Below are positions 6,003 through 61,644 of a stretch of DNA of 64,000 nucleotides, in pieces; the stretch's first letter is position 1, and each line of letters opens with the position of its first letter. The notes under the pieces are model-generated. The model was not told the origin of the DNA. It did no database searches and worked only from the letters and a program-made list of their open reading frames with translations. Where the stretch lies: contig NZ_JAFHKM010000002.1 of the NCBI RefSeq assembly GCF_016937515.1, positions 2,537,001 to 2,601,000 of the forward strand, read 5' to 3'. A program made the translations under genes and the position numbers. The DNA is from Cohnella algarum (GTDB lineage Bacteria > Bacillota > Bacilli > Paenibacillales > Paenibacillaceae).

Positions 6003-6493
6003 ATGCTGATCATGAACGAGAAAATCAAAGCTTCCGAAGTCGAGCTGACGGGCCTGGACGGAGAGGCGCTGGGCATCGTCCCGCGCGCGGAGGCGTTGGA
6101 GCTGGCGAAGCGGCTGAAGGCGGACCTGGTATGCGCCTCGCTGCTCAGCAGCCCGCCCCTTGCAAGCTGGTTGCCCGGGGGCAGGCGAAGCAGGAGCGGC
6201 AGCAGGAGAAAAAGCAGGACCGGGCGGAGGCGCAATCGCTTAAAACGAAGGAAATTCGCCTCACTCCGCACATTGAAGACCACGACTACGAGACGAAGCT
6301 CCGCCAGGCGGAGAAGCTGCTGCAGTCGGGCCGCTCCGTGCAGCTTGTCGTTCGTCTGACGAACGCGAAGGAAGGGCAGCGGGCGAAGGAGCTGCTCGAA
6401 GCGATGCTCAAGGATTTGCAAGGCGCCGGAACGAAAAAAACGGCCGTGCAAACGAGCGGAAAGCAGGCGGCCGTGCTTGTACTGCCGCGATAA
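6003..6493 (+). pseudogene. IF-3-like translation factor paralog, frameshifted
   Basis: The N-terminal IF-3 domain (MNEKIKASEVELTGLDGE, GIVPRAEALELAKRLKADLV) is read from ATG 6003, preceded by GGAGGG. From about 6160 the match continues in another frame (CKLVARGQAKQERQQEKK, KEIRLTPHIEDHDYETKLRQAEKLL, AKELLEAML) to the stop at 6493. One extra C in the CCCC run at 6156-6159 would restore a single 163-residue protein with the expected SSPPPCKL junction. The protein is diverged from a housekeeping IF-3 and lacks ribosomal-protein neighbours (rpmI/rplT), so it looks like a second, accessory copy. Sequencing error, true mutation and slippage are all possible; the first seems most likely. Confidence 0.75.
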
Positions 6494-6531
6494 ATTTATG
6501 TAAGAAAATCTGACTTAAGCGTTTACAATCC

Positions 6532-6560
6532 TTTACAAATGATAAATAAGACGGTATAGT
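6532..6560 (+). promoter_or_regulatory. SigmaA-type promoter of the riboswitch transcript
   Basis: TTTACA (6532-6537), 17-base spacer, TATAGT (6555-6560). The predicted start falls at about 6567, exactly where the conserved part of the riboswitch begins. Confidence 0.7.
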
Positions 6561-6565
6561 GGTAC

Positions 6566-6690
6566 TACGCTTAGTTTCCGGCTATATAGGTCGGGAAGCG
6601 GGGGAACCAGTTTTTGGGGCGAGTCGTTCGTCTTTTCGATGAACGTAGGGTACCATCTACCCGAGTCCGTCAGCTAACCTCGTCAGCAGG
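6566..6690 (+). promoter_or_regulatory. c-di-AMP riboswitch (ydaO/yuaA class)
   Basis: The conserved blocks of this class appear in order: CGCTTA, GCGGGGGAACC (about 6597-6607), TTGGGGCGAGTC, a variable stem (GTTCGTC ... GATGAAC), GTAGGG ... ACCCGAGTCC, and the near-invariant CGTCAGCTAACCTCGT ending near 6684. In this class ligand binding normally turns expression off. It is followed by a terminator hairpin (6722-6760) and then the HAD phosphatase and mtlD, so it is placed to control them. Confidence 0.92.
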
Positions 6691-6721
6691 AGATGGGTCA
6701 TTTCTTTGCTTATAACCAAGT

Positions 6722-10487: not shown

Positions 10488-11552
10488 TTAAGATAGCGAT
10501 TTTTTTGCAGCCGGAATAAGCGTCACTTTTTCAGGATTCAGCCAGACTTCATCTTTCAGGCTCCAGTCGCGAATGGTGCCAGACCAGCGATTAGGGTTTC
10601 TGGCTTTTGCGGCCAAATAAATCTCCTTGCGTTTCTCAAACACTTGGTGTGCTAATCCTTCATGCCGCTGGTTAGGTGTAATAAAATTCAGTCCGCTGTG
10701 TCGATGTTGTTCGTTGTACCAGCGAACAAATCGCATGACCCATTCACGCGCCTCTGACAAGGCCTTAAAGCCTTCCGTTGGATAGCCAGGACGGTACTTG
10801 CATGTGCGGAAAATCGATTCTGCGTAAGGGTTGTCGTTGCTGACGCGTGGTCGGCTTCGAGAGGGGGTAATGCCCAAACTGTACAGGGTCTCCAGCAACG
10901 TGGCCCCCTTCATCGGGCTTCCGTTATCCGAGTGAAGCACAAGCGGCTGCCGACGAATCACGCATTGCTCTCGCACGACCGTACGACGGATCAATTGACT
11001 GGCATGCTCGGCAGACTCTTCTTCCCAAATCTCCCAGCCTACAATTTTACGGCTGTACAAATCCAGGATGAGATACAGGTAGAAGAACAACCCCTTCACG
11101 GGCCCGGGCAACCAAGTGATATCCCACATCCATACTTCATTCGGGCCGCTCGCAGCGTGGCTGGTGATGGGTTTAAGGGTGCGTTTCTTGCTGCGCCCGC
11201 GATGGTGCTGCTGATTGTATTTATGCATCACCCGGTAAAAGCTGGACTCGGAGGCGATGTAGGTTCCTTCATCGGCCAGCGCCGGCACAATCTGGCTTGG
11301 CGGCAGGCTCCTGTACGGCGGCTGCTGAAGAACCTCCAGCACCTGCTGCTCTTCTGCATCGCTTAGCTTGTTAGCGGGTGTCGGCCGTTTGGCGTGAGGG
11401 CGTCCGTCTACGGTACCGCCTTGCTTGCGCCAGCGTTGCAGCGTTCGCTGAGTCAGTCCGAGCTCTCGGCAAGCAGCCGCTTCTCTTGCGCCGGCAGCAA
11501 CGGCTTCTTGAATCAGTGTAAGGGCATGCTCGCGATCTGAGGCACTGATCAT
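10488..11552 (-). CDS. IS3-family transposase, DDE subunit (orfB)
   Basis: 354 residues. N-terminal HTH-like part (ELGLTQRTLQRWRKQGG), then an rve integrase core: first Asp in WMWDITW, second in LHSDNGSPM, Glu in NDNPYAESIF, followed by the WYNEQHRHSGL region typical of IS3 family. ATG overlaps the stop of orfA by ATGA, so coupling is by termination-reinitiation; the classical IS3 programmed -1 frameshift is not obvious here. All catalytic residues are present, so it may be active. Confidence 0.95.
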   Translation of the reverse strand: MISASDREHALTLIQEAVAAGAREAAACRELGLTQRTLQRWRKQGGTVDGRPHAKRPTPANKLSDAEEQQVLEVLQQPPYRSLPPSQIVPALADEGTYIASESSFYRVMHKYNQQHHRGRSKKRTLKPITSHAASGPNEVWMWDITWLPGPVKGLFFYLYLILDLYSRKIVGWEIWEEESAEHASQLIRRTVVREQCVIRRQPLVLHSDNGSPMKGATLLETLYSLGITPSRSRPRVSNDNPYAESIFRTCKYRPGYPTEGFKALSEAREWVMRFVRWYNEQHRHSGLNFITPNQRHEGLAHQVFEKRKEIYLAAKARNPNRWSGTIRDWSLKDEVWLNPEKVTLIPAAKKSLS

Positions 11553-13699: not shown

Positions 13700-14462
13700 A
13701 TAGGCGTTTTGCGGAGCTCCGATATGACAATGTTAGCGAGATGAATGAAACGCTGGTTGTAGAAGCGCCACAAATCGATCGGCGGCCATCCCCAATTGGT
13801 CCCGATCGCTTCGTATTGCCCGTCCGTGTCGAACTCGATACGACCCTGGCCGTCGTCAACCCCTTGCGCCTTCCGAAAAACCGCCGCCCGGCGGTTTTTT
13901 TTCTTCAGGAAATCGCTTTGCAAATTTCCTGATCCCGAAATTCGACGAAGACGTCTGGCAGCCGTTAGCGCACTTGCGCTCAGTTCTATCCGCCGATCCG
14001 GGCTTATGGCCGGTCGGAGGAGGAGGAATACCCGGTCGCCGGTCGGGTTTTGACTTGCAGCTCCTTCCTGTGCCGCAGATTTTGAGGAAATCAAAGGCGG
14101 CTCCGATGCGACCGCGATCAGTTCCCATGCCAAAGGTCATAATTCCAGGATCCGTTCCCAACATACTGAAAATATTTGGTTAAATTTTAAGGTATTCGAC
14201 AAATTATTACAAAAAACAGCGATTCAAAGGTGTAAAATGTGCGCATGACTAATTTACTATATTTTCTGAATGCTTCCATGATTTCTATTTTTGGCAATTG
14301 GAAGTCGAAACTTAGCTGCTGCGGGTTGTGAAACTGTTCGGTCTGCGGCACTCGTTGTTCTCGTTTAATAATGGCTGAAGTAGTGCAGCAAAATTATCGT
14401 CGTAACTGCGCCCATAGATGAATGAATCGACAGGAAATACGAAGGAAAGGAAGTCATTGCAT
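13700..14462. other. Gene-poor interval with one hairpin and a tiny ORF
   Basis: No recognised gene. A bidirectional hairpin (AAACCGCC GCCC GGCGGTTT flanked by A and T runs) lies at about 13877-13902. The minus strand from 13880 to 13684 reads like a protein tail (GQYEAIGTNWGWPPIDLWRF) but I cannot tie it to a family. A 28-residue ORF (MTNLLYFLNASM ... KLSCCGL) at 14245-14331 precedes the regulator; its AAAGGTG is 12 bases away. Both are weak. Confidence 0.35.
13873..13905. terminator. Bidirectional intrinsic terminator
   Basis: AACCGCC/GGCGGTT stem with a GCCC loop, preceded by AAAAA and followed by TTTTTTTT, so it can act on either strand. Confidence 0.6.
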
Positions 14463-15092
14463 TTGAGCGATATGCCTATTCGTATTGGGATCGTCGAGGA
14501 TGATCCGCTGTTCCTGCTGGCGTTGTCTCGCTACTTAAATTCCCAGCCCGATATGAACGTTACAGGAACCGCTGCCAGCCGTGCCGAAGCCTTGCAAATG
14601 ATACTACTGAAGCCTCTAGACTTGATTTTAATGGATGTCGTTCTGTCGGACCAATTAGATGACGGCATTCAGGCTACTATTGAAATTCTGGAGTCGCTTA
14701 AAGTGAAAATCATTATGATGTCATCCCGCCGAGATAAAGACATAATTCTTCGTGCGTTTGCGGCAGGGGCGATTGATTTTGTTCCAAAAACCAGGTACCG
14801 GCAATTGCCCGAAATTATCCGTGCCGCATTGGATGTTTTCAATCCGCATGCCATATTGGCTGAGGAATACGGGGAGCTGCGGAAAAAGGAACTACTTTCA
14901 CGTTTGTCTGCATCCGAACAAGAAATATTTGAATTATTGCACCAAGGGTATACCCGCTCCGAGATTGAAAAGAAACTTTTTAAGTCAGCTAGTACGATAA
15001 AGAATCAAATTAACAGCATTCTCCGGAAATTGGAGGTTTCAAATTCGAGAGAAGCAGTTCGTAAGGTCGAAACGCGTGGAGTAGGAAGATAA
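14463..15092 (+). CDS. Orphan NarL/LuxR-type response regulator
   Basis: 209 residues from TTG 14463, chosen for GGAAAGGAAG at 9 bases; the ATG at 14418 has no ribosome site. Receiver domain (IGIVEDDPLF, phospho-Asp in LILMDVVLSD, Lys in DFVPKTRY) and a C-terminal HTH (LSASEQEIFELLHQGYTRSEIEKKLFKSASTIKNQ). HTH spacing is slightly degenerate relative to NarL (Lys-rich recognition helix). No kinase gene is adjacent; it sits in the accessory block between two insertion sequences and just upstream of the bacteriocin region, so a role there is possible but unproven. Confidence 0.88.
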   Translation: MSDMPIRIGIVEDDPLFLLALSRYLNSQPDMNVTGTAASRAEALQMILLKPLDLILMDVVLSDQLDDGIQATIEILESLKVKIIMMSSRRDKDIILRAFAAGAIDFVPKTRYRQLPEIIRAALDVFNPHAILAEEYGELRKKELLSRLSASEQEIFELLHQGYTRSEIEKKLFKSASTIKNQINSILRKLEVSNSREAVRKVETRGVGR

Positions 15093-35345: not shown

Positions 35346-35577
35346 AGCGCAACCGCGCGATGTTTCCTGAAACTCACTTGCACGAAAACAACGAAAGCCC
35401 TGCCTCTCAATCGTTCTTGCGGTTCCTTGACCGCTCCAGCGAGAATTCGTGTTCCTTTCCCAGCAGCCATTGTATTAAAGGAATGTGAAAGAGAACGGAG
35501 GCGATATCCCTTTAGAGGAAAAATCAGAGGGTCACACTTAAATCACTAATGAATTATACTTCATCTGGATAACTATG

Positions 35578-52343: not shown

Positions 52344-52419
<76 letters not shown>

Positions 52420-52473: not shown

Positions 52474-52529
52474 TTTCATTAAAGAAGTTCGGTTTGACAT
52501 TCCGAAGTTTTGTTGGTAGACTTCCTTAA

Positions 52530-52548
52530 GTGTAATTATTACAATTAA
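52530..52548. promoter_or_regulatory. Zur-box-like site 1
   Basis: GTGTAATTATTACAATTA: a TGTAAT-T-ATTACA palindrome close to the Bacillus Zur consensus (TCGTAAT-N-ATTACGA). Upstream of the split methyltransferase gene. Confidence 0.6.
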
Positions 52549-52580
52549 TCGAAAAGTGTTTTGTTTTTATTTTTTCGCTT

Positions 52581-52602
52581 TAATCGTAATTATTACAATT
52601 TA
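52581..52602. promoter_or_regulatory. Zur-box-like site 2
   Basis: ATCGTAATTATTACAATT, left half perfect to the Zur consensus (TCGTAAT), right half with one change. About 75 bases ahead of the methyltransferase ATG at 52676. No other feature is seen in this interval. Confidence 0.7.
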
Positions 52603-52694
52603 AACGAAGGACACCGAACAACGCCATCTGCCAACGCATTCGATCGCTTCCGTTTGGAAGAGGGAGGGAGTACAAATGAATCGCCCCGTTTTAA

Positions 52695-54245
52695 AAGTCC
52701 GGTGATAAAGTCCGCGTAAGCAGGCTTTTATCACGGTTTTGTCGAATTAATATCGTAACACGACTATCGAAAGAGTGATTAGGTATGAAAGCCCGCAAGT
52801 CATCGGCTATCCAGCCTCAGATGTTCCAATTCGTGGATATGGATGAACTCGTGCCGAAAAAGCACATCCTGCGCCAACTGAACGAAGCGCTTGATTTTTC
52901 CATCGTTCATGATTGGGTGGCGCCTCTATATACGGAACGTACCGGCCGCCCGGCGGCTGACCCGGAGCGGATGGTTCGACTGATGCTGCTTTCGTATTTG
53001 TTCAACCATTCCGAACGGGAATTGTATCAACTGTTGCCCATGCATGCGGGCTATTTGTGGTTTTGCGGACTGGATTTCGAATCCGTCGTGCGCCCGGACT
53101 CATCGCGGCCGTCCCTGCCGGATCGGACGACCTTGGTGAAGACCCGGAAATTGTGGCGAACGCACGGTGTTTTTGAGAAGCTGATGAAACATGTCGTCGA
53201 TCAGTGCATCGCCGCGGGACTGGTCCAACCCGATGTGCATGTCGGCGTCGACGGCACCCAGGTACGGGCCAACGCATCCATTCACAGCTTGAAAGAAATC
53301 ACCCTGGCCCCGGTGGAGTCGATTGAAGACTATTTGGCTCGCATGGCCCGGCAAGATGAAGAGACCGGTGGTGTCGCCCATGATTCCGATGATGACCGAC
53401 AGCCGCCCGCACCGCCCGCGCAAAAAGAGCGGCTGCTGGAAGACGAAGCGACGCATGAAGATTTTCATGGCAAAACGTTCTCGAACAAGACCCACCGCAG
53501 CGTAACGGATCCGGATGCCCGCTTGTACAAAAAGAGCAACGGTCAGGAAGCGCATTTGCGGTATTTGGTGCATGATGTGACGGATATCAAATCCGGCGTC
53601 ATTCTGTCTACGCAAGCGAGCATCGCGTCCGGAACGGCTGAGCGTGAAACGAGCTTGCGGCAGCTCTTCGCGATCCGTTTTGCCCATCCGCAAATCCGGA
53701 TTCGGACGCTTTCTGCCGATAAAGCCTACGGTACGACAGATTATCTGCAAGCGTTGTTCGAGCAAGGGATTGTTCCCCTGGTTTCGCTTCGCAACCTGAC
53801 ACTGGAAGATGTACCTGCTTGGAAACGTCAAACGAACGATCCGGAGAAACAACGCAAACGGCTGGCCAAAATCCGGGAAATCCAAATTCGAAACAAAGCC
53901 AAACGAATTCAGCTTATGGGTTCTTACCGTCATCTGCAAAAGTTGCGGACGCGGTGCGAGCATGTGTTTGCCGAAAGCAAAGTCGCGCATGGCCTGGGCC
54001 GCGCACGGAGCCGTGGATTGGACTGCATGCAAGAGCAGGCGGTGCTCACGGCCATCGTTCAAAATCTGAAAAGACTGTGCCGGTTTAAGAAAAAGCGACC
54101 ACAAACCGGTGTTTTGGCATGTCCAAAACCGAAATCCGTGATGATGGAGGCAGTGTCGGACCTGCTCATTTCGGCGCTGGTTGGGTTGTTTTCCTCTTTT
54201 TTTATGCCGAAGAGACGGTTACAACTGACCTAAATCACCGGACTT
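52695..54245 (+). mobile_element. IS1182-family insertion sequence (1551 bp)
   Basis: Terminal inverted repeats AAGTCCGGTGAT ... ATCACCGGACTT, 12 bp perfect, with a 4-bp TTAA direct duplication outside (52691-52694 and 54246-54249). One transposase gene fills it. Ends, duplication and gene are intact, which suggests a recent insertion. Confidence 0.95.
52785..54233 (+). CDS. IS1182-family transposase
   Basis: 482 residues. N-terminal DUF772-type region (PLYTERTGRPAADPERMVRLMLLSYLFNHSERELYQLL; core GRPAADPERMVRLMLLSYLF), first catalytic Asp in VGVDGTQVRANAS, second in LSADKAYGTTDYL, and the third acidic residue in ABC-like RCEHVFAESKVAHGLGRARSRG (Glu before SKVAHGL). DDE core of the IS4/IS5-related IS1182 family. 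The ATG lies 90 bases inside the left end. Full length and likely active. Confidence 0.95.
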   Translation: MKARKSSAIQPQMFQFVDMDELVPKKHILRQLNEALDFSIVHDWVAPLYTERTGRPAADPERMVRLMLLSYLFNHSERELYQLLPMHAGYLWFCGLDFESVVRPDSSRPSLPDRTTLVKTRKLWRTHGVFEKLMKHVVDQCIAAGLVQPDVHVGVDGTQVRANASIHSLKEITLAPVESIEDYLARMARQDEETGGVAHDSDDDRQPPAPPAQKERLLEDEATHEDFHGKTFSNKTHRSVTDPDARLYKKSNGQEAHLRYLVHDVTDIKSGVILSTQASIASGTAERETSLRQLFAIRFAHPQIRIRTLSADKAYGTTDYLQALFEQGIVPLVSLRNLTLEDVPAWKRQTNDPEKQRKRLAKIREIQIRNKAKRIQLMGSYRHLQKLRTRCEHVFAESKVAHGLGRARSRGLDCMQEQAVLTAIVQNLKRLCRFKKKRPQTGVLACPKPKSVMMEAVSDLLISALVGLFSSFFMPKRRLQLT

Positions 54246-55048
54246 TTAAAGTGGTACGAAGAAAGTTTCGGCGAGGATTATTTGCTCATCTATCGTCATC
54301 GGAACCGGCTGCAGGCCGAATGTGAAGTCCGAACGATGACGAAATGGTTAAAGCTGCGCCAAAAGGACCGTATCCTCGACCTTTGCTGCGGTACGGGAAG
54401 ACACTCCTTGGCGCTTGCAAATGCAGGCTACCGCGTTACCGGCATCGATCTGTCTCCGGTATTGCTTCGGGAAGCGAGAACGAACGATCCCGATGGCCGC
54501 GTTACCTGGATCGAATGCGACATGCGCGCTTTGCCTGACGATACGATGTTTGCTGAACGATTTGACGCTGTCGTTAATTTGTTCACCTCCTTCGGCTATT
54601 TTGAAGAAGACAGCGAACAATTGAAGGTGCTGCGCCAAATCCGGAAAGCATTGAAGCCAGGGGGGAGATTCGTCATCGATGTTATGAACGCGGGATACAC
54701 GGAGGATCATCTGGTGCCTCATTCAAAGCGAGTCGAACGGGGAGCGGTTATCTCGGAAACCCGCCGAATCGAAAAAGGGTTCGTCGTTAAAAAGATCGTT
54801 GTCCAAGAGCCGAACGGATCGCCTCGCCGTTATTCCGAACGAGTGAAGCTATACGCGCCCGAACAACTGTCGACGATGCTGAATGAGGCAGGTTTAGTGT
54901 TAGATACAATATACGGAGGATATGAGGGGGAGATTTATGACGCGAGGCAATCGTGTCGAATGATCATGGTCGGCCATCGGTAAGTATGCGGAGCTGGTCC
55001 GGGACTTCGATAAACAACTTTTGCATTTTCGTTTATTTTAATTCGTTT

Positions 55049-55069
55049 TAATCGTAATAATTACATAAA
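55049..55069. promoter_or_regulatory. Zur-box-like site 3
   Basis: AATCGTAATAATTACATAAA, TCGTAAT-A-ATTAC core, 17 bases before the TTG start of the substrate-binding lipoprotein, so it would cover the promoter or leader. Confidence 0.75.
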
Positions 55070-55085
55070 GTGAGGGGGAGGCAAG

Positions 55086-56260
55086 TTGTTCATCCGAATA
55101 TTATCCAAAACGGGCAGTTTCAAGAGCCTGGCGTTTTTACTCGTACTCGTTGTTTTGGCTGCGGGCTGTTCGGCCGGCACGGGCAACGATTCGCCGATGA
55201 CGACGGAGCGGAACCTGCAGTCGAACTCGCCGGCACAAGCCGAACAGTCCAATTACACGTTTACGGACACTAGCGGGAAACAAATTACGCTGAATATTCC
55301 GATTCAAACAGCAATCATCATCAACCGAAATACGGCGGAAGCGATCAAATTGTTGGGAGCGGACGATCGTGTTGCAGCAACCGGCGACGCGACAATTAAA
55401 AACAACCCGTATCTGGGTTTCCAAAGCTTGCCCGATGTAGGCGAAACCGGGCAGTTGAATCTGGAGACGATTCTGAGTTTGAAGCCGCAGGCCGTATTCA
55501 CCTATACGAATCGGCCCGATCGGAAACTGGAGGAGAAGCTTGAGCCTGCGGGCATTAAAGTCGTAAGAATGAACAATTACTTGCCCGATCAGACGGACTC
55601 GGAATGGGAATTGCTCGGCAAGCTGTTCGGCAAAGAGGAGCGGGCCGCCCAATTTCTCGAATGGAAGCATGGAATCGAACGCATCTCCGCGGAGCGAATC
55701 CAATCGATCGGGGAAAACGACAAAAAAAGCGTAATGGCGCTGTCTGCAGGATTTCTCAATTCCGATGGGGCTATCGTATTTTTCCGAGTCAGTCGCTGGG
55801 CGGAAAACCCGGGGTGGGCGAGGGCTTTGCCACGATTTTGGCTGGCGGCAAAGATGCGGCGGATTTACAGTGGAATCCGGCCGAAGCCTCCACGACGATC
55901 ATGGTCGATGAGGAGTATGTCCTTACGCGAAATCCGGACGTTATTACGCTGCACGGCACATGGCTTGGGGGATACGAAGCTGCGGACGTTCAGCCGCTCG
56001 AGGACGCGTTCGCCAATATGTTGTCCATCTCTTCCTTGAACCGGCTGAAAGCGGGAAAAAATAGGGACGTCTATTTTTTTCATACGAATTTCATCGGATC
56101 GGACAAACGGTATATCGGCGTATTGCAACTTGCCAAATGGTTGTATCCGGACCGCTTCGCAGACGTCGATCCCGAGGCATACGCAAGAGAGTATTTTGAA
56201 AAATGGCTCGGCGTCCCGTACCAAGGAATCTGGTATCACTCGTTTAAGGAGCGCAAATGA
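55086..56260 (+). pseudogene. FecB-type metal-chelate-binding lipoprotein, frameshifted
   Basis: TTG 55086 has GAGGGGGAGG upstream. Lipoprotein signal (FLLVLVVLAAGCS, lipobox Cys). Residues about 55-230 are the first lobe of a TroA/FecB-type binding protein (FTDTSGKQITLNIPI, AIKLLGADDRVAATGD, PDVGETGQLNLETILSLKPQAV quoted in part: LNLETILSLKPQAV). Near 55779-55785 (TTTTTCC) the frame is lost; one added base restores FFPSQSLGGKPGVGEGF and a full 391-residue protein ending HSFKERK at 56260. The gene is followed by FecCD permease (overlap TGATG) and ATPase genes. It would bind a metal chelate outside the membrane. Confidence 0.85.
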
Positions 56261-57365
56261 TGGGGGAATCGATCCGTCGCAGTGAAACGGACTCTTTGAG
56301 ATCGATATCGTCGACTCGGCAGCTGGCGTCTCTATACCGCGGCAGTTCGATGCGCAAGCTTCTCTTGCTCGGGTTGTTTCTGGTCTTGCTGGTCGTCGCA
56401 GCGGCAGCGGCGATCATGAAAGGCTCGGCGAGCGTGCCATTGCCGGAGCTCTGGGCAATGGCGACGGGAGGGACAGTCGATGAAATGAACGCGTATATCG
56501 TTCGGGAAGTCAGACTTCCCCGAATTACGATGGCTATCGTGACCGGCATATCGCTCGCTGCGGCGGGAGCGATCATGCAGGCGCTGCTGCGCAACCCGCT
56601 GGCCGACCCCTTTACTCTCGGCGTTTCCAGCGGGGCCTCCTTTGGCGCGGCGCTTGCTATTGTCGCAGGCTCCAGCGCATTCGGCATCAACCTTGTGCAT
56701 AACGGACAATGGCTGATCGCGTTTAATGCATTCGTTTTCGGCTGCCTGGCGGTCGGAATCGTTTATGGCATCGCGCGGTTGAAGAGCGGTTCGACCACGG
56801 TGCTGCTGCTTGCGGGCGTGGCGATCGGCCAATTGTTCGCGGCCGGCGTATCCTCGCTCAAATATTTTTCCGACAACGAGGCCCTCAAAGATTTGATCGT
56901 CTGGCTGATGGGAGGATTTTGGGGGCCAGTTGGCAGGTTCTGTACATTCTTCTGCCCCTGTTTGCCGTATCGCTGGGGGTGCTGATGAAATATGCCTGGG
57001 ATTTGAATGCGCTCGTTTCGGGCGAAGAGGCGGCGCGCACGCTCGGGGTCAAAGTGAAACGATTGAGGTGGATCTGCCTTTTGACGGTGACTCTGATGGC
57101 GTCAACCACGATTGCCTTCACCGGAATCATCGGGTTTATCGGACTTGTCGCCCCGCATATCGGCCGGATGATGATCGGTACCGATTACCGGTATTTGCTG
57201 CCGTTCTCCTGTCTGATCGGGGCCCTGCTCCTGCTGTTGTCGGATACGGTTGCCCGGCTGCTGCTGTCTCCGATCGAAATTCCGGTCGGAATCGTGACCT
57301 CCTTTTTCGGCGCGCCGTTTTTCGTTTATTTGCTCGTTCGAAAGCGTCGGGAGTACTGGGCCTAG
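56257..57365 (+). pseudogene. FecCD-type ABC permease, frameshifted
   Basis: ATG 56257 overlaps the binding protein stop. First part has the FecCD pattern (REVRLPRITMAIVTGISLAAAGAIMQALLRNPLADPF; core VRLPRITMAIVTGISLAAAG, NPLADPFTLGVSSGASFGA). The frame breaks at the GGGGG run 56921-56925 (WLMGGFWG); adding one G gives ASWQVLYILLPLFAVSLGVL and the usual second half (GEEAARTLGVKV, GIIGFIGLVAPHIGRM, EIPVGIVTSFFGAPFFVYLL), 369 residues in all, normal length. Most likely intact in the organism with a sequencing error here. Imports iron-siderophore, heme, cobalamin or, in a Zur setting, zinc-chelate substrates. Confidence 0.85.
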
Positions 57366-57376
57366 GAGGAACGATC

Positions 57377-58150
57377 ATGTTCGTAAACGTTTCGGGGTTA
57401 TCGTTCAAGTACCGTTCAAACGTCATTTTAAGCGACATTCAGATGAGCATGAAAAAAGAAGAAGTGGTCAGCATCGTCGGACCTAACGGGGCGGGAAAGA
57501 CCACGCTCCTGAAAAGCATCTGCTCCATCCTCCCGCCGCGGAAGGGGACGGTAAGGATCGGCGGGGAGGACGTGCGTTCGATAAGACCCGGACAATTGGC
57601 CAAAATCCAGGCTTATGTGCCGCAGCAAGCCTCGTCCGGATTTCCGCTTACCGTTATGGAGACGGTAATGCTCGGCAGAAAGCCCTACATTCGATGGGGC
57701 GTTACAAAGCAGGATCTGAACATTGTGGAATCCTTGCTGTTCGAACTTCGACTGGATCGTTACGCAACGCGTCATATGGACGAATTGAGCGGCGGCGAAC
57801 GGCAGAAAGTTTTGATTGCCCGGGCGCTCGCCCAACAACCGGACATGCTGCTGCTTGACGAGCCGACTTCGGCCCTCGACATCCGGCATCAGCTCGAGGT
57901 GCTGGAGCTCGTCCGCAGCCTTGCGAAGCGGTCCGGAATGCTTGTCGTGCTGATCCTGCATGACCTGGAGCTGGCATCCCGGTATTCGGATACGGTTTAC
58001 ATGTTGAAGGACGGACGGATATTCGCATCCGGCAAACCCGAAGCGGTGTTTACCTCTCTCCATATGGAGAAGGTATACGGAGTGCGGATGGAAATCGAGC
58101 GCTCGCCGCATGGAATGAAAATGACCGCGCTCGAACCGCTGCAGGAATGA
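57377..58150 (+). CDS. FecE-type ABC ATPase
   Basis: 257 residues from ATG 57377 (AGGAGGAACG upstream). Walker [15 protein letters not shown]-loop YVPQQASSGFPLTV, signature LSGGERQKVLIARALAQQ, Walker B LLLDEPTSALD, H-loop LHDLELASRY; all intact. The C-terminal part follows the vitamin B12/siderophore ATPase type (VFTSLHMEKVYGV). Completes a FecBCD-type importer with the two preceding genes. Confidence 0.95.
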   Translation: MFVNVSGLSFKYRSNVILSDIQMSMKKEEVVSIVGPNGAGKTTLLKSICSILPPRKGTVRIGGEDVRSIRPGQLAKIQAYVPQQASSGFPLTVMETVMLGRKPYIRWGVTKQDLNIVESLLFELRLDRYATRHMDELSGGERQKVLIARALAQQPDMLLLDEPTSALDIRHQLEVLELVRSLAKRSGMLVVLILHDLELASRYSDTVYMLKDGRIFASGKPEAVFTSLHMEKVYGVRMEIERSPHGMKMTALEPLQE

Positions 58151-58186
58151 CATTTTTATTCGGAAAACGAGAGGGAGGGAACTTCA

Positions 58187-59029
58187 ATGTTTCACGGCGT
58201 CCGATTCAATATGGATTTTAAGCGGTTCTGGATGGAAGGCATGAAAGATTGGAACGGAAAATTGCCGGAACGAATGATCGACGATGCCAAGGAAGAAGCG
58301 TTTTGGCAAACCTATATCCCGAACAAATCGAGCGCGCTGGACGACTACTCGGCCGATATTCGAACGGAGCTTCTCCGTTTCATTGAACCGGCCGACCATG
58401 TGCTGGAGATCGGGCCGGGTTGGGGCAATTACACGTTTGCTGCCGCAAATAAAGCATCGTCGCTTACCTGCGTAGACAGCTCGCGAAGCGTGCTCGATTA
58501 TTTGCGGAAGGAGACGAGACGCAAAGGTCTTCGCGAACCCCGGCTCATTCATGCCAAATGGGAAGATCGCCCTCCGCAGGAAACATTTGATGTCGTCTTC
58601 GGGATCAATTGTTATTATCGAATGCAGGAGATTGACCGGGCGCTTCTCCACATGAACAACGCAGCCAAACGGTGGGCGATCGTCGGACTGACGAGCGGTC
58701 CGGAAAAACCGCATTTATGGGAAATTCATCGGCGGCTTGGTTACAAAATCAAATTTCAGCGGCGGGATTACATTTATTTGACCAACCTTCTCTATGAGCT
58801 CGGCATCGATGCCAACTGCAAGATTCTCGATTTGGAGCGTACCTATCGGTATGAAAGCGAGGAGCAGATGATCATGGACAATCTTGGCGCTATTCTGGAA
58901 CCCGATTACGATCGAAAAGCCGCGGAAGAGATTCTCCGCCAGTTCGTATCGGAACGGGATGGAAGCTTTCTATATAAGCATCGGTTCAAGGGCGTACTGC
59001 TGTATTGGAGGCCGGAACGCATCATGTAA
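58187..59029 (+). CDS. Class I SAM-dependent methyltransferase (second)
   Basis: 280 residues. N-terminal segment (FKRFWMEGMKDWNGKLPERM), motif I VLEIGPGWGNYTFAAANK (EIGPGWG), acidic residue in SLTCVDSSRSVLDYL, motif IV FDVVFGINCYYRMQEIDRA, then a C-terminal region unlike common families. GAGGGAGGG ribosome site, 36 bases after the ATPase. Being in the importer operon, it may alter the imported chelate or build it; neither is proven. It is not homologous by eye to the split methyltransferase upstream beyond the fold. Confidence 0.88.
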   Translation: MFHGVRFNMDFKRFWMEGMKDWNGKLPERMIDDAKEEAFWQTYIPNKSSALDDYSADIRTELLRFIEPADHVLEIGPGWGNYTFAAANKASSLTCVDSSRSVLDYLRKETRRKGLREPRLIHAKWEDRPPQETFDVVFGINCYYRMQEIDRALLHMNNAAKRWAIVGLTSGPEKPHLWEIHRRLGYKIKFQRRDYIYLTNLLYELGIDANCKILDLERTYRYESEEQMIMDNLGAILEPDYDRKAAEEILRQFVSERDGSFLYKHRFKGVLLYWRPERIM

Positions 59030-59046
59030 CCATCGAGCCGCAATTG

Positions 59047-59097
59047 AAAAGACCCGCAGCAGGAATCAAACATGGCCCGGCCGGGGTCTTTCTTGTA
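59047..59097. terminator. Bidirectional terminator between convergent genes
   Basis: AAAAGACCC and GGGTCTTT arms close a loop with an inner GGCCCGGCC; T-rich end (TCTTGT) on the plus strand and TTTTC on the minus strand. Confidence 0.7.
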
Positions 59098-59108
59098 TTG
59101 AAAATGAA

Positions 59109-60106
59109 CTAGCCGGCAACGCAACCGGCAAACTGTTTGCGGAACCATTCTTCATCCAGATTGCGGCCGATGACGACGAATTCGCTGGTCGGCACTTCAT
59201 TCGGCTTCCATTCGCGGTCGGGATACGAACCGAACAGCATGTGAATGCCTTGGAACACAATTCGCTGCTTGACCCCTTGATATTCAAGACGCCCTTGTAG
59301 CGAAAGGTATCCACGCCGTGGTCGACAAGCCATTCGTTAATGAAACGTTCCACCTTGTTTAAATCAAGCGGACGCGTCTCCCGAAAAAAGACCGAGGTGA
59401 CATCGTCATCATGCTCATGATCCTCTTCTTCGAGAAATCCCGGTTCGATCTCCAGTTTCTTCTCCAAGTCGAAGGCGCCGATTCCGAGAATCCGGTCGAT
59501 TTCAATTTGGGACTGCCGGGTGCGGTAAAGCTTGGCGGCCGAATTCATTGCGCGAAGCCGCTGTTCCAGCTTCTGAAGCTCGTCTTCGGAAACGAGGTCC
59601 GTTTTATTTAACAAAAGAACGTCCGCAAAGGCGACTTGTTCCTGCGCCTCATGGCCTTCGTCCAGGTGTTGGCCGGCATGTTTCGCGTCCACGACCGTGA
59701 CAATGGCATCGAGCTTGTAAAATTCGGAGATTTCCGGATTGACAAAAAAGGTTTGAGCGACGGGGGCCGGATCGGCGAGGCCCGTCGTCTCGATAAGCAC
59801 CCGGCTAAAATCGGCTCTGCGACCGCCTTTGCCGAGTTTGGCTTCCATGAGCTGACCGAGAATGCGAATGAGGTCGCCCCTTACGGTACAGCAAATACAT
59901 CCGTTGTTCATTTCGAAGATTTCTTCATCCGCGCCGACAACAAGCTGATTGTCGATGCCGACTTCGCCGAATTCGTTGACAATGACCGCGACTTTTTCGC
60001 CATGGTCGGCAGTCAGTACGTGGTTAAGCAGTGTCGTTTTTCCGGCGCCAAGAAAGCCCGTCAGCACCGTTACGGGAATGCGGGAATCGGCCTGCAGATT
60101 TGGCAT
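59109..60106 (-). pseudogene. COG0523 GTPase (zinc/metal chaperone family), frameshifted near the 3' end
   Basis: ATG 60106 is used because AAAGGAG lies 8 bases upstream. Walker [10 protein letters not shown] (residues 18-25), CxCC metal site (Cys70, Cys72, Cys73 in NNGCICCTVRGD), ETTGLADP, NKTDLV (guanine site), a short acid/His stretch (EEEDHEHDDD) and the start of CobW_C (VERFINEWLVDHGVDTFRYKGVLNIKG). Then the CCCC run at 59273-59276 (plus strand) breaks the frame; one extra base restores VKQRIVFQGIHMLFGSYPDREW ending WFRKQFAGCVAG (quoted in part: GIHMLFGSYPDREW), 332 residues. In Bacillus, COG0523 proteins under Zur (YciC/ZagA type) deliver zinc to client proteins. Confidence 0.88.
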
Positions 60107-60135
60107 GACGTTCACTCCTTTGTCTTGACTTCTTA

Positions 60136-60153
60136 AATGTAATATTTACAATT
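60136..60153. promoter_or_regulatory. Zur-box-like site 4
   Basis: ATGTAATATTTACAAT, TGTAA-N3-TTACA within a wider palindrome CTTCTTAA ... TTAAGAAG (60128-60158); sits 30 bases upstream of the minus-strand COG0523 start. Confidence 0.6.
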
Positions 60154-60251
60154 AAGAAGAGTATAGATCTCTTCAATTCGTTTGTCAAACGACAGTCGAA
60201 CCCCTTTATCTTTCGTTCCGGAATATTGAACGGGGTGCGGTTTATGTATAT

Positions 60252-60271
60252 AATCGTAATAATTACAAATA
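60252..60271. promoter_or_regulatory. Zur-box-like site 5
   Basis: AATCGTAATAATTACAAATA, TCGTAAT-A-ATTACAA, one change from the consensus palindrome; 50 bases ahead of the ferredoxin gene. Confidence 0.75.
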
Positions 60272-60321: not shown

Positions 60322-60684
60322 GTGACAACATGGAATTTACAGGAGACTTTTTGTCACCTGCTCATCTGCAATGGCAGCAACTGCATGATGCGGCAAGCCG
60401 AAGAAGTAACGAAGGCGATCCGTGACGAAATTGCGCTTCTCGGAGCGGATAAACGGATTCATACGACGCGAACCCGGTGCAATGGGCGGTGCGCGGACGC
60501 CTGCGTAGTGATCGCCTACCCGGACGGAGTCTGGTATAGGGATATTTCTCCCGAATCCGGAAGGACGCTTGTCCGAAAGCATCTTTCAGGAGATCGACTG
60601 GATGAACAGTTGGTTTATTCGTTCGACGGCCGATTTATCGCTTCGGACCTTTCTGTAGCGGGAAAAGAAAAAACCTCAAGCTAG
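60322..60684 (+). CDS. (2Fe-2S) ferredoxin-domain protein (CobW-associated type)
   Basis: 120 residues from GTG 60322 (AAAGGAGGAC upstream). Thioredoxin-like ferredoxin fold: Cys16 and Cys21 (LLICNGSNCMMRQ), Cys53 and Cys57 (TRTRCNGRCADACVV) as cluster ligands, then AYPDGVWYRDI. Two further Cys (11, 61) flank them. Proteins of this kind are found near COG0523 GTPases in zinc- or cobalt-responsive clusters, as here, where a COG0523 gene follows 36 bases later and a Zur-like box precedes. Confidence 0.88.
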   Translation: MTTWNLQETFCHLLICNGSNCMMRQAEEVTKAIRDEIALLGADKRIHTTRTRCNGRCADACVVIAYPDGVWYRDISPESGRTLVRKHLSGDRLDEQLVYSFDGRFIASDLSVAGKEKTSS

Positions 60685-60720: not shown

Positions 60721-61364
60721 TTGATCAGAAAGACACCGGTTGTGATTCTGTCCGGTTTTCTCGGGAGCGGAAAAACAACGCTGCTTGCGAGAATGCTGGA
60801 TTATTACGCTAAAAGACGAATAAGACCTGCTGTCATCATGAATGAAGCGGGCGACGTCAATCTGGACGGTCAGCTTGTCAATGAAGAGGTCCCGATGCGA
60901 GAAATGCTGAGCGGTTGTATCTGCTGTACGATTCGGGGCGATTTGGGCATGGAGATCCGAGATCTGATAGCGGATCGTTCGCCCGATCTGATTCTTATTG
61001 AAGCAACGGGAGTTGCGAATCCGATGGAAATTTTCGATTCGGTGACAGAGGCGGCCTTTCTCGTTCCTATCGTATGAACACGTTACGGTTTACACGCATT
61101 ATTTCGAACATCCTATGGGATCGCGGTCGAATCGAAACCATTTTAAGCGAATTGCCGAGCAGTATCTATCGGGCAAAGGGCATTTTTACGGCGGCAGATA
61201 CCGGAGAACGGATGATGTTTCAAGTTGCCTACCGGCAGCTGAATCTTTTTCGGATAAAACCGCAAAGCAACGTTCAGGACGTTGCCGTCTTTATGGGCGA
61301 ACAATTTCCCAAGCAAGAAATTAAGCGGAAGCTAGAGGAAGACGCGGGTGTTGGCGGTGTCTAG
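60721..61364 (+). pseudogene. Second COG0523 GTPase, internal deletion
   Basis: TTG 60721 (GCGGGAAGG upstream). The first 118 residues are an intact N-terminal GTPase half (LSGFLGSGKTTLL, SGCICCTIRGDLG with CxCC, LILIEATGVANPMEIFD) ending VPIV and a stop at 61077. A second ORF (61074-61364), overlapping by ATGA and in another frame, is a CobW_C domain (SSIYRAKGIFTAADTGERMMFQ; core YRAKGIFTAADTGERMM). The central portion with the NKxD guanine site, about 100 residues, is missing. A family member needs it for GTP binding, so this is a deletion remnant unless the two ORFs act as separate peptides. Confidence 0.85.
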
Positions 61365-61533
61365 CTAAGTTTCGGCACTATCTATCAAAACATTAAAACT
61401 GTTTCAAAACATTCAGGTCATCGAGTTTTTCGTCTTTGCCGATGAAATTCGCTATCGCATGATGAAGAAGGAGCATCCGAAATATCATGTCATCTGCATA
61501 GGATGCGAAACAACGATGACTGTCAAGCGGCAA
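61365..61533 (+). pseudogene. Fragment of a Fur/Zur-family regulator
   Basis: Directly after the CobW_C stop, SFGTIYQNIK and, one frame later (extra A in the AAAA run at 61395-61398), LFQNIQVIEFFVFADEIRYRMMKKEHPKYHVICIGCETTMTV (quoted in part: VIEFFVFADEIRYR, KYHVICIGCETTM) match the end of the DNA-binding domain and the start of the dimer domain of Fur-family proteins (T-x-Y-x-x-L-K and HxHxxCxxC regions). The N-terminal helices, most of the dimer domain and the second CxxC pair are absent. A Zur-type gene at a Zur-box locus is a natural origin, but Fur or PerR cannot be excluded. Confidence 0.65.
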
Positions 61534-61535
61534 CC

Positions 61536-61580
61536 GTTATACGCGCTTGTCCCGGACTCCGGGCAAGCGCGTATTTTTAA
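61536..61580 (+). terminator. Terminator closing the zinc-related block
   Basis: ATACGCGCTTG and CAAGCGCGTAT, perfect 11-bp stem extended by CCCGG/CCGGG, then TTTTTAAT. Confidence 0.88.
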
Positions 61581-61644
61581 TTTCGGATTCGGGAGCGAAA
61601 CGCCGGGCTGCATCGTTATTTAAGTAGGGAAAGGTGGTGGAGAC

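Follow-up and report, generated by a model that had tools for sequence, protein, structure and literature searches.

A Zur-box gene cluster in Cohnella algarum and its relatives behind cobalamin riboswitches

A 64,000-nt stretch of the genome of the soil bacterium Cohnella algarum (contig NZ_JAFHKM010000002.1, positions 2,537,001 to 2,601,000; hereafter, the window) holds a cluster in which a FecBCD-type importer, two methyltransferases (MT1 and MT2), two COG0523 GTPases and a ferredoxin are encoded behind five palindromes resembling binding sites of the zinc regulator Zur. What would such a set of genes bring into a zinc-starved cell? A first-pass annotation of the sequence had proposed a zinc chelate that is made or modified by the methyltransferases. 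Our best reading is instead that a metal-chelate importer has moved repeatedly under Zur to supply cobalt and/or zinc in zinc starvation, and we put at about 0.5 the probability that the cluster represents, under Zur repression, a metal-supply module that other Bacillales have in the B12 (cobalt) regulon. Where loci and genomes must be told apart, they carry L and G numbers, respectively, G000 being the genome studied here.

Zur boxes of the cluster

We prepared a 21-bp matrix from 29 training sites selected via the core GTAATNATTAC, 23 of them at loci of other genomes and six elsewhere in this genome. No training site lies in the window, because training on it was to be avoided. Applied to the full 64 kb, this independent matrix returned exactly the five palindromes of the first-pass annotation, at 23.4-32.0 bits. 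The sixth-best place scored 12.3 bits, and the maximum over 20 Markov-1 random windows (one strand) was 13.9 bits. A 15-mer scan allowing up to 3 mismatches, which is much weaker evidence than the matrix, gave six matches, of which the cluster accounts for four, compared to a mean of 2.2 in shuffles.

A scan of the 6.2-Mb genome with TCGTAATNATTACRA, one mismatch allowed, yields seven places. This cluster has three of them, a region at C2 263-271 kb that contains znuABC, zur and a COG0523 gene has two, and the last two lie upstream of a second FecB-FecC-FecD set (C2, 5643 kb); in this genome, the motif is therefore a mark of zinc genes. An ordinary znuABC-zur locus is present elsewhere, and both a zur gene and canonical targets with like boxes are found in the same genome. 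The second FecB-FecC-FecD set (L052:3123-6410, corresponding to G000:C2 ~5640.1-5643.4 kb) has its boxes directly upstream, at L052 6290 and 6403; its FecB lies in two frames, and a transposase-like open reading frame (ORF), recognized by eye, adjoins it.

Whether Fur or PerR would fit the boxes better was judged by simple mismatch counts to Zur, Fur and PerR 15-mers. The counts, in that order, were 1, 4 and 3 at 52584, 2, 5 and 4 at 55052, 1, 4 and 3 at 60254, 3, 5 and 3 at 52530, and 4, 6 and 4 at 60137. Zur is therefore preferred to Fur at all five boxes; three are clearly nearer to Zur than to PerR, and PerR equals Zur at the other two. A consensus for Gram-positive ZUR given in PMC545781 is TAAATCGTAATNATTACGATTTA. 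Promoter-like hexamers abut on the 5′ side of, or overlap, three boxes (52494-52522 and 60226-60254 on the plus strand, 60188-60160 on the minus strand); with nine such matches in the region and 7.1 expected, their number is not significant.

Taken together, the matrix, the boxes at znuABC-zur, the layout shared with three relatives (L057, G416 and G436) and the zur-like genes within the L057 and L058 clusters provide good support for Zur control of the cluster, which we regard as very likely, in line with the zinc response that was first proposed.

Related operons behind Zur boxes and cobalamin riboswitches

We collected the best 80 of 137 MT2 relatives from named genomes and added L055 and L056, giving 82 loci. 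Cobalamin riboswitches were called with nhmmer across all 82 and with Rfam on 18 loci, the window and nine short loci; the riboswitches of L061, L069 and L070 were entered from the Rfam scan, and a match to the core with one mismatch at L129 was left out of the Zur label. Rfam gave no cobalamin riboswitch in the 64-kb window; its matches there are a c-di-AMP riboswitch (6558-6703) and a BsrC small RNA (35378-35464).

In other Paenibacillaceae, orthologous FecB-FecC-ATPase-MT2 operons lie directly 3′ of a cobalamin riboswitch in L061 (with the ferredoxin gene first), L062, L067 and L068. The riboswitch of L070 is ~4 kb upstream of the operon within the same gene run, and the link in L069 is uncertain, an opposite-strand ORF lying between riboswitch and operon. 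The orthologous operon stands behind Zur boxes in the window, L057, L058, L126, L133, G416 and G436, and boxes also occur at L066 (P. alkaliterrae, partial) and at L093 and L096 (Halalkalibacter oceani, other importer). Both kinds coexist in P. senegalensis JC66, with L058 the Zur copy and L070 the riboswitch copy.

The order box(es)-MT1-box-FecB-FecC-ATPase-MT2 is kept in L057, G416 and G436, where FecB is a single open frame, and the boxes 5′ of MT1 are paired in G416 and G436 too. Both of these continue after MT2 with a zur-like gene, COG0523 A on the opposite strand and boxes 5′ of the ferredoxin gene; COG0523 B was found in the G436 stretch and not in the G416 stretch. The zur-like genes within the L057 and L058 clusters encode proteins 57-73% identical to this genome's Zur. 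Two of them are in L057 (P. montaniterrae), at 10893-11351 (57%) and 14152-14628 (73%).

In B. panacihumi, riboswitch and Zur box stand together before the importer operon. The order in L059 is riboswitch (6136-6316), terminator-like hairpin (6403-6426), promoter-like hexamers (6456-6484), Zur box (6489-6503) and ferredoxin start (6547). The gap between riboswitch and box in this strain, JCM 15085, is just ~170 bases; in strain W25 (L060:4238-6503), group II intron matches lie between the two. Other combinations occur as well. P. chitinolyticus (L063:9565-14359) and its relatives L064 and L065 have a solo MT2 behind a cobalamin riboswitch, followed by a Zur box and a permease-like gene, with a COG0523 gene close by. 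L093:7076-11992 has a Zur box within a B12 operon, between tetrapyrrole methylase-type and BtuF-related genes, and downstream of the latter come an importer, MT2, a ferredoxin and a CbiY/BluB-like gene.

On the MT2 tree, placing the ten Zur-linked rows in one clade was rejected (approximately unbiased test, p 1e-9, run once the tree had been seen). Parsimony gave four changes between Zur and riboswitch over 30 labelled rows, three without the dual rows and five with B12-operon rows labelled as riboswitch. The module is rare: MT2 orthologues above 200 bits occur in 3 of 197 family genomes, and the binding protein at E 1e-60 in 8 of 392 order genomes, this one counted. Among the matches listed from the openly licensed literature (titles and abstract starts), no paper joins this operon, Zur and the cobalamin riboswitch.

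Neighbours in the 82 loci were clustered, and Pfam was run on one representative per cluster. Six clusters belong to B12 synthesis (tetrapyrrole methylase, CbiG, two CbiA/CobQ-type amidotransferases, siroheme-synthase type and BtuR), and MT2 occurs with at least three of the six in 34 loci. It also lies beside a NiCoT-type protein in L085 and L086 (in L086, above the Pfam NicO cut-off and below those of the NCBIfam models), beside CbiM (above cut-off) and a ferredoxin in L082, and beside NikA/Opp-type importer genes in L071, L080, L081 and L084 (L084, 471 bits; cut-off, 600), the transporter families having been assigned on L086, L082 and L084 alone. Ferredoxin-CbiX fusions form a cluster that is represented in 13 loci and was checked on one member. 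MT2 is not zinc-specific. In 30 aligned relatives, its residues N141, C142, Y144, R145 and H176 are invariant and C211 nearly so; from conservation, these are possible metal or acceptor-site residues.

For a PDB sequence search we used the L057 orthologue of the binding protein; FecB of the window is split. Its nearest matches by sequence were 4mo9, YiuA and MolA, and by predicted fold FepB, YiuA and MolA, with Ni-bound CeuE lower. BtuF was absent from the 14 sequence matches at E 0.01 and from the best 50 fold matches listed for the model, although absence from the latter is not exclusionary; as a control, this genome's riboswitch-linked BtuF-like protein matched BtuF at E 4e-21. YiuA, FepB (Veillonella), MolA and HP1561 CeuE are 17-25% identical to the binding protein, and the ligands in their PDB titles are iron with a siderophore piece, molybdate, Ni and Ni-His. 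This grouping makes uptake of a metal chelate plausible, in partial support of the initial proposal, with zinc as a putative cargo. The L057 protein is 60-65% identical to the riboswitch-linked forms, 67% to the dual form and 56% to the Salipaludibacillus Zur forms. At 60-65% identity, the ligand is probably unchanged from that of the riboswitch-linked forms.

CbiD was found in 26 of 32 genomes searched, and a later search of G000, G416 and G436 found it in none. CbiD is missing from each of the six genomes tested that have the operon in a Zur-only form (these three, P. senegalensis and two Salipaludibacillus); four riboswitch genomes and two B. panacihumi have it. CbiD and control type are associated (Fisher p 0.0097) in a comparison that was chosen post hoc and ignores kinship. 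P. senegalensis entered it twice and L069 as riboswitch; L057, L056/G002 (3-mismatch box only), L066 (binding-protein fragment) and L093/L096 (other importer) were left out. Were the cargo a corrinoid, riboswitch control would be expected in genomes unable to make B12. Because these six genomes use Zur, and a riboswitch-linked BtuF-FecCD locus exists apart from the cluster in the genome studied here, the pattern favours a metal over a corrinoid as cargo, which is short of proof.

Alternative readings and the state of this copy

Pfam and NCBIfam recovered the gene content named in the first-pass annotation (Table 1), to which the insertion sequence, the split frames, the shortened COG0523 B with its Fur-family remnant, the znuABC-zur locus and the B12 link are additions. 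Peripla_BP_2, FecCD and ABC_tran are all present, FecB and FecC being in split frames; MT2 has a class I methyltransferase fold with a glycine-rich motif I, and the COG0523 genes combine a cobW domain with an upstream Zur box. A tRNA-Thr (CGT) gene at 52344-52419 ends ~110 bases 5′ of the first Zur box, and the cluster may be an island inserted next to it.

Table 1. Features of the cluster (window positions)
Feature	Position	Strand	Remarks
Zur box 1	52527..52547	.	29.1 bits; 5′ of methyltransferase 1 (MT1), insertion sequence now between
Zur box 2	52581..52601	.	32.0 bits, top score
Insertion sequence (ends approximate)	52690..54250	+	Pfam DUF772, DDE_Tnp_1; ORF 52785-54233; at MT1 start
MT1, class I S-adenosylmethionine (SAM)-dependent	54234..54983	+	ORF listed from TTG 54282; insertion sequence interrupts start
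Zur box 3	55049..55069	.	26.0 bits; 5′ of importer operon
FecB-type substrate-binding lipoprotein	55086..56260	+	Frames 55086-56039, 55604-56260; Peripla_BP_2 in first piece
FecCD-family permease (FecC)	56257..57365	+	Frames 56257-56985, 56919-57365; FecCD profile 1-172, 172-311
ABC ATPase (FecE/HmuV-like)	57377..58153	+	Single open frame
Methyltransferase 2 (MT2), class I SAM fold	58187..59029	+	Single open frame; family common to B12, cobalt loci
COG0523 (CobW-type) GTPase A	59066..60115	-	Frame change near 59273-59297
Zur box 4	60134..60154	.	23.4 bits, lowest of five; 5′ of COG0523 A
Zur box 5	60251..60271	.	30.2 bits; 5′ of ferredoxin-COG0523 B
Thioredoxin-like [2Fe-2S] ferredoxin (FDX)	60322..60684	+	Pfam/NCBIfam; CbiX-fused relatives
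COG0523 GTPase B	60721..61364	+	Internal deletion: ~residues 119-283 of L057 protein gone
Fur/Zur-family gene remnant	61375..61590	+	~73 of 158 residues recognisable

Is the module decaying, and without function in this genome, whatever its role in relatives? An insertion sequence with a transposase gene and inverted-repeat arms (52681-52706 and 54234-54259, 85% complementary) sits between boxes 1-2 and MT1, at the extreme start of MT1, which from 54234 on is 72% identical to L057 residues 2-250. COG0523 B is missing ~165 internal residues, and downstream of it is a Fur-family remnant (26% identity to an L057 zur-like protein over 73 residues, E 4e-5). This insertion and this deletion are structural changes. 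L057, G416 and G436 carry a zur-like gene in the interval from MT2 to COG0523 A; the window does not. FecB, FecC and COG0523 A have one frame change apiece, each in a stretch containing 4-5 consecutive G or C; identity of the two FecB pieces to the L057 protein is 68% and 87%. Since frame splits also occur in this assembly in znuB and in the second FecB gene, and its znuA matches only 195 of 263 profile positions, the split frames of the cluster may be sequencing errors, and we did not accept them as proof of decay. The frames of the ATPase, MT2 and the ferredoxin are open. On balance, decay is a tentative explanation that we hold to be less likely than not, and the function of this particular copy is doubtful.

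A second alternative is a corrinoid importer under Zur, in which FecBCD would carry B12 or its precursors, MT2 would act in corrinoid metabolism and zinc-starved cells would raise their B12 and lean on B12-dependent enzymes, for example MetH in place of the zinc enzyme MetE. A cobalamin riboswitch upstream of BtuFCD is usual in Bacillales and not strictly defining. The riboswitches and cbi neighbours of the orthologues and MT2 relatives agree with this idea, as does a riboswitch copy in genomes without CbiD (L070, perhaps L069); moreover, metE of this genome lies 3′ of a cobalamin riboswitch, and the MetH activation domain was present in all eight genomes tested. Against it stand the missing BtuF match beside a positive control, the separate BtuF-FecCD locus, the company of MT2 with cobalt-ion and NikA-type transporters, and the MetE domain, which 5 of the 11 genomes examined lack; each of these five has Zur-linked MT2. 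We consider a corrinoid cargo unlikely. Its variant of MetE sparing, in which B12 uptake driven by Zur would shut off MetE, was rejected as a general account on the same five genomes.

The zincophore route that was first suggested for the cluster, in which both methyltransferases would make or modify a zinc chelate for import, would include a change of ligand on the move under Zur, which the identity of the binding proteins makes improbable. Zur control itself agrees with such a route, and the opine zincophore clusters described in PMC7438024 (staphylopine/bacillopaline type) share the zinc context, some of them with FecCD-type importers and extra methyltransferases. For MT1, tblastn matches above 45 bits were confined to Zur-linked loci (L057, L066 and L133 of the 82, plus G416 and G436), and thus a role of MT1 in a zinc-specific ligand is possible. 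No such match was found in the Zur loci L058, L126, L093, L096, L059 and L060, however. MT2 is common to cobalt and B12 loci, and its family also lies beside the free-ion nickel/cobalt transporters NiCoT and CbiM, a setting in which secreting a chelator would serve no evident purpose. Pfam and NCBIfam recognized no scaffold-making enzyme or exporter among the cluster proteins; the same scans gave no CntL-like (nicotianamine synthase-like) or CntM-like (opine dehydrogenase) family among the cluster proteins scanned, in which the cluster differs from the opine type. A genome-wide search for the opine dehydrogenase family PF10100 gave no match, but all 14 controls were silent too. Synthesis of a new zincophore is improbable.

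Proposed function of the module

We return to the Zur-repressed metal-supply module. In zinc-replete cells, Zur on the promoter boxes would silence MT1, the importer-MT2 operon and the COG0523 and ferredoxin genes, and its release in zinc starvation would turn them on. A divalent-metal chelate would then enter through FecB, FecC and the ATPase, most probably the one handled by the riboswitch-controlled orthologues, which would take up cobalt for B12 synthesis. The imported metal could be cobalt replacing zinc and/or zinc on the same ligand, and MT2, the ferredoxin and the COG0523 GTPases would act inside the cell, releasing or placing the metal. Of this scheme, computation shows the boxes, the gene families, the alternation of riboswitch and Zur and the company of cobalt and B12 genes, from which repression, the cargo and the parts played by MT2 and the ferredoxin are inferred.

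There are precedents for parts of this scheme. As described in PMC13083405 and PMC11481552, the Zur-controlled PA2911-2914 system of Pseudomonas aeruginosa imports cobalt-pyochelin in zinc starvation, and according to PMC11340326, zinc-starved C. metallidurans substitutes cobalt for zinc. PA2911-2914 resembles the cluster in its Zur control and in parts that were compared with siderophore or vitamin B12 entry proteins, with COG0523 discussed alongside (PMC11481552, PMC13083405). It differs in being Gram-negative, with an outer-membrane receptor and an identified ligand, whereas the ligand here is putative; the word "methyltransferase" is absent from PMC11481552. The B12 (cobalamin riboswitch) regulon of Bacillales, which includes ferredoxin-CbiX and CbiY, shares an orthologous importer, MT2 and the ferredoxin family. 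Compared to it, the cluster has Zur boxes in place of the riboswitch and extra COG0523 genes in a genome without CbiD, and the Zur clusters of relatives carry zur-like genes. Zur boxes 5′ of COG0523 GTPases are also shared with the Zur-COG0523 clusters in PMC2770081 and PMC6336718 (B. anthracis Zur); the main text of the former has no mention of "FecB", "siderophore", "ferredoxin" or "Paenibacillus", and the latter none of "FecCD" or "methyltransferase".

A broader hypothesis, which we offer as tentative and rather less probable than its core, is that a cobalt-chelate module shifted from riboswitch to Zur several times in Bacillales, often where B12 synthesis had been lost, with imported cobalt replacing zinc in zinc-starved cells. 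The riboswitch-terminator and Zur promoter of B. panacihumi would act in series as an OR gate (low B12 or low zinc), and enzymes of cobalt/zinc handling, so far not recognised as such, would be found in MT2 and the CbiX-type ferredoxin.

Several observations weigh against the metal-supply reading. The likeness of the binding protein does not fix the ligand; the H. oceani binding protein differs and is similar to BtuF (E 2e-10, best match 4n01), and FecC and the ATPase come closest in NCBIfam to BtuC, heme and corrinoid subunits, all below cut-offs. L070, and perhaps L069, are riboswitch copies in genomes without CbiD, so B12 synthesis cannot explain a need for cobalt there. Conversely, some genomes with Zur-linked MT2 are CbiD-positive (P. 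alkaliterrae L066, H. oceani L093/L096, B. panacihumi L059/L060), and loss of B12 synthesis therefore does not explain every swap; L066, L093 and L096, plus L056 if its box is counted, run counter to the trend, all CbiD-positive. The exact-core boxes of L058 precede a COG0523 gene upstream of FecB, with merely a 3-mismatch box directly 5′ of FecB. In L059, the number of promoter-like and of terminator-like matches does not exceed that in shuffles (1 compared to 0.9 and 0.6).

These results suggest that zinc-starved cells borrow a cobalt-supply system, with no new zinc-scavenging molecule made, and they caution that a FecBCD importer plus a methyltransferase under Zur should not be read as a new zincophore. 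One importer and one methyltransferase family thus respond to B12 shortage in some species, to zinc shortage in others and apparently to both in one, a contrast provided by nature. It makes testable whether cobalt import serves survival of zinc starvation outside Proteobacteria and what role the methyltransferase and the ferredoxin have in the B12 operons of Bacillales.

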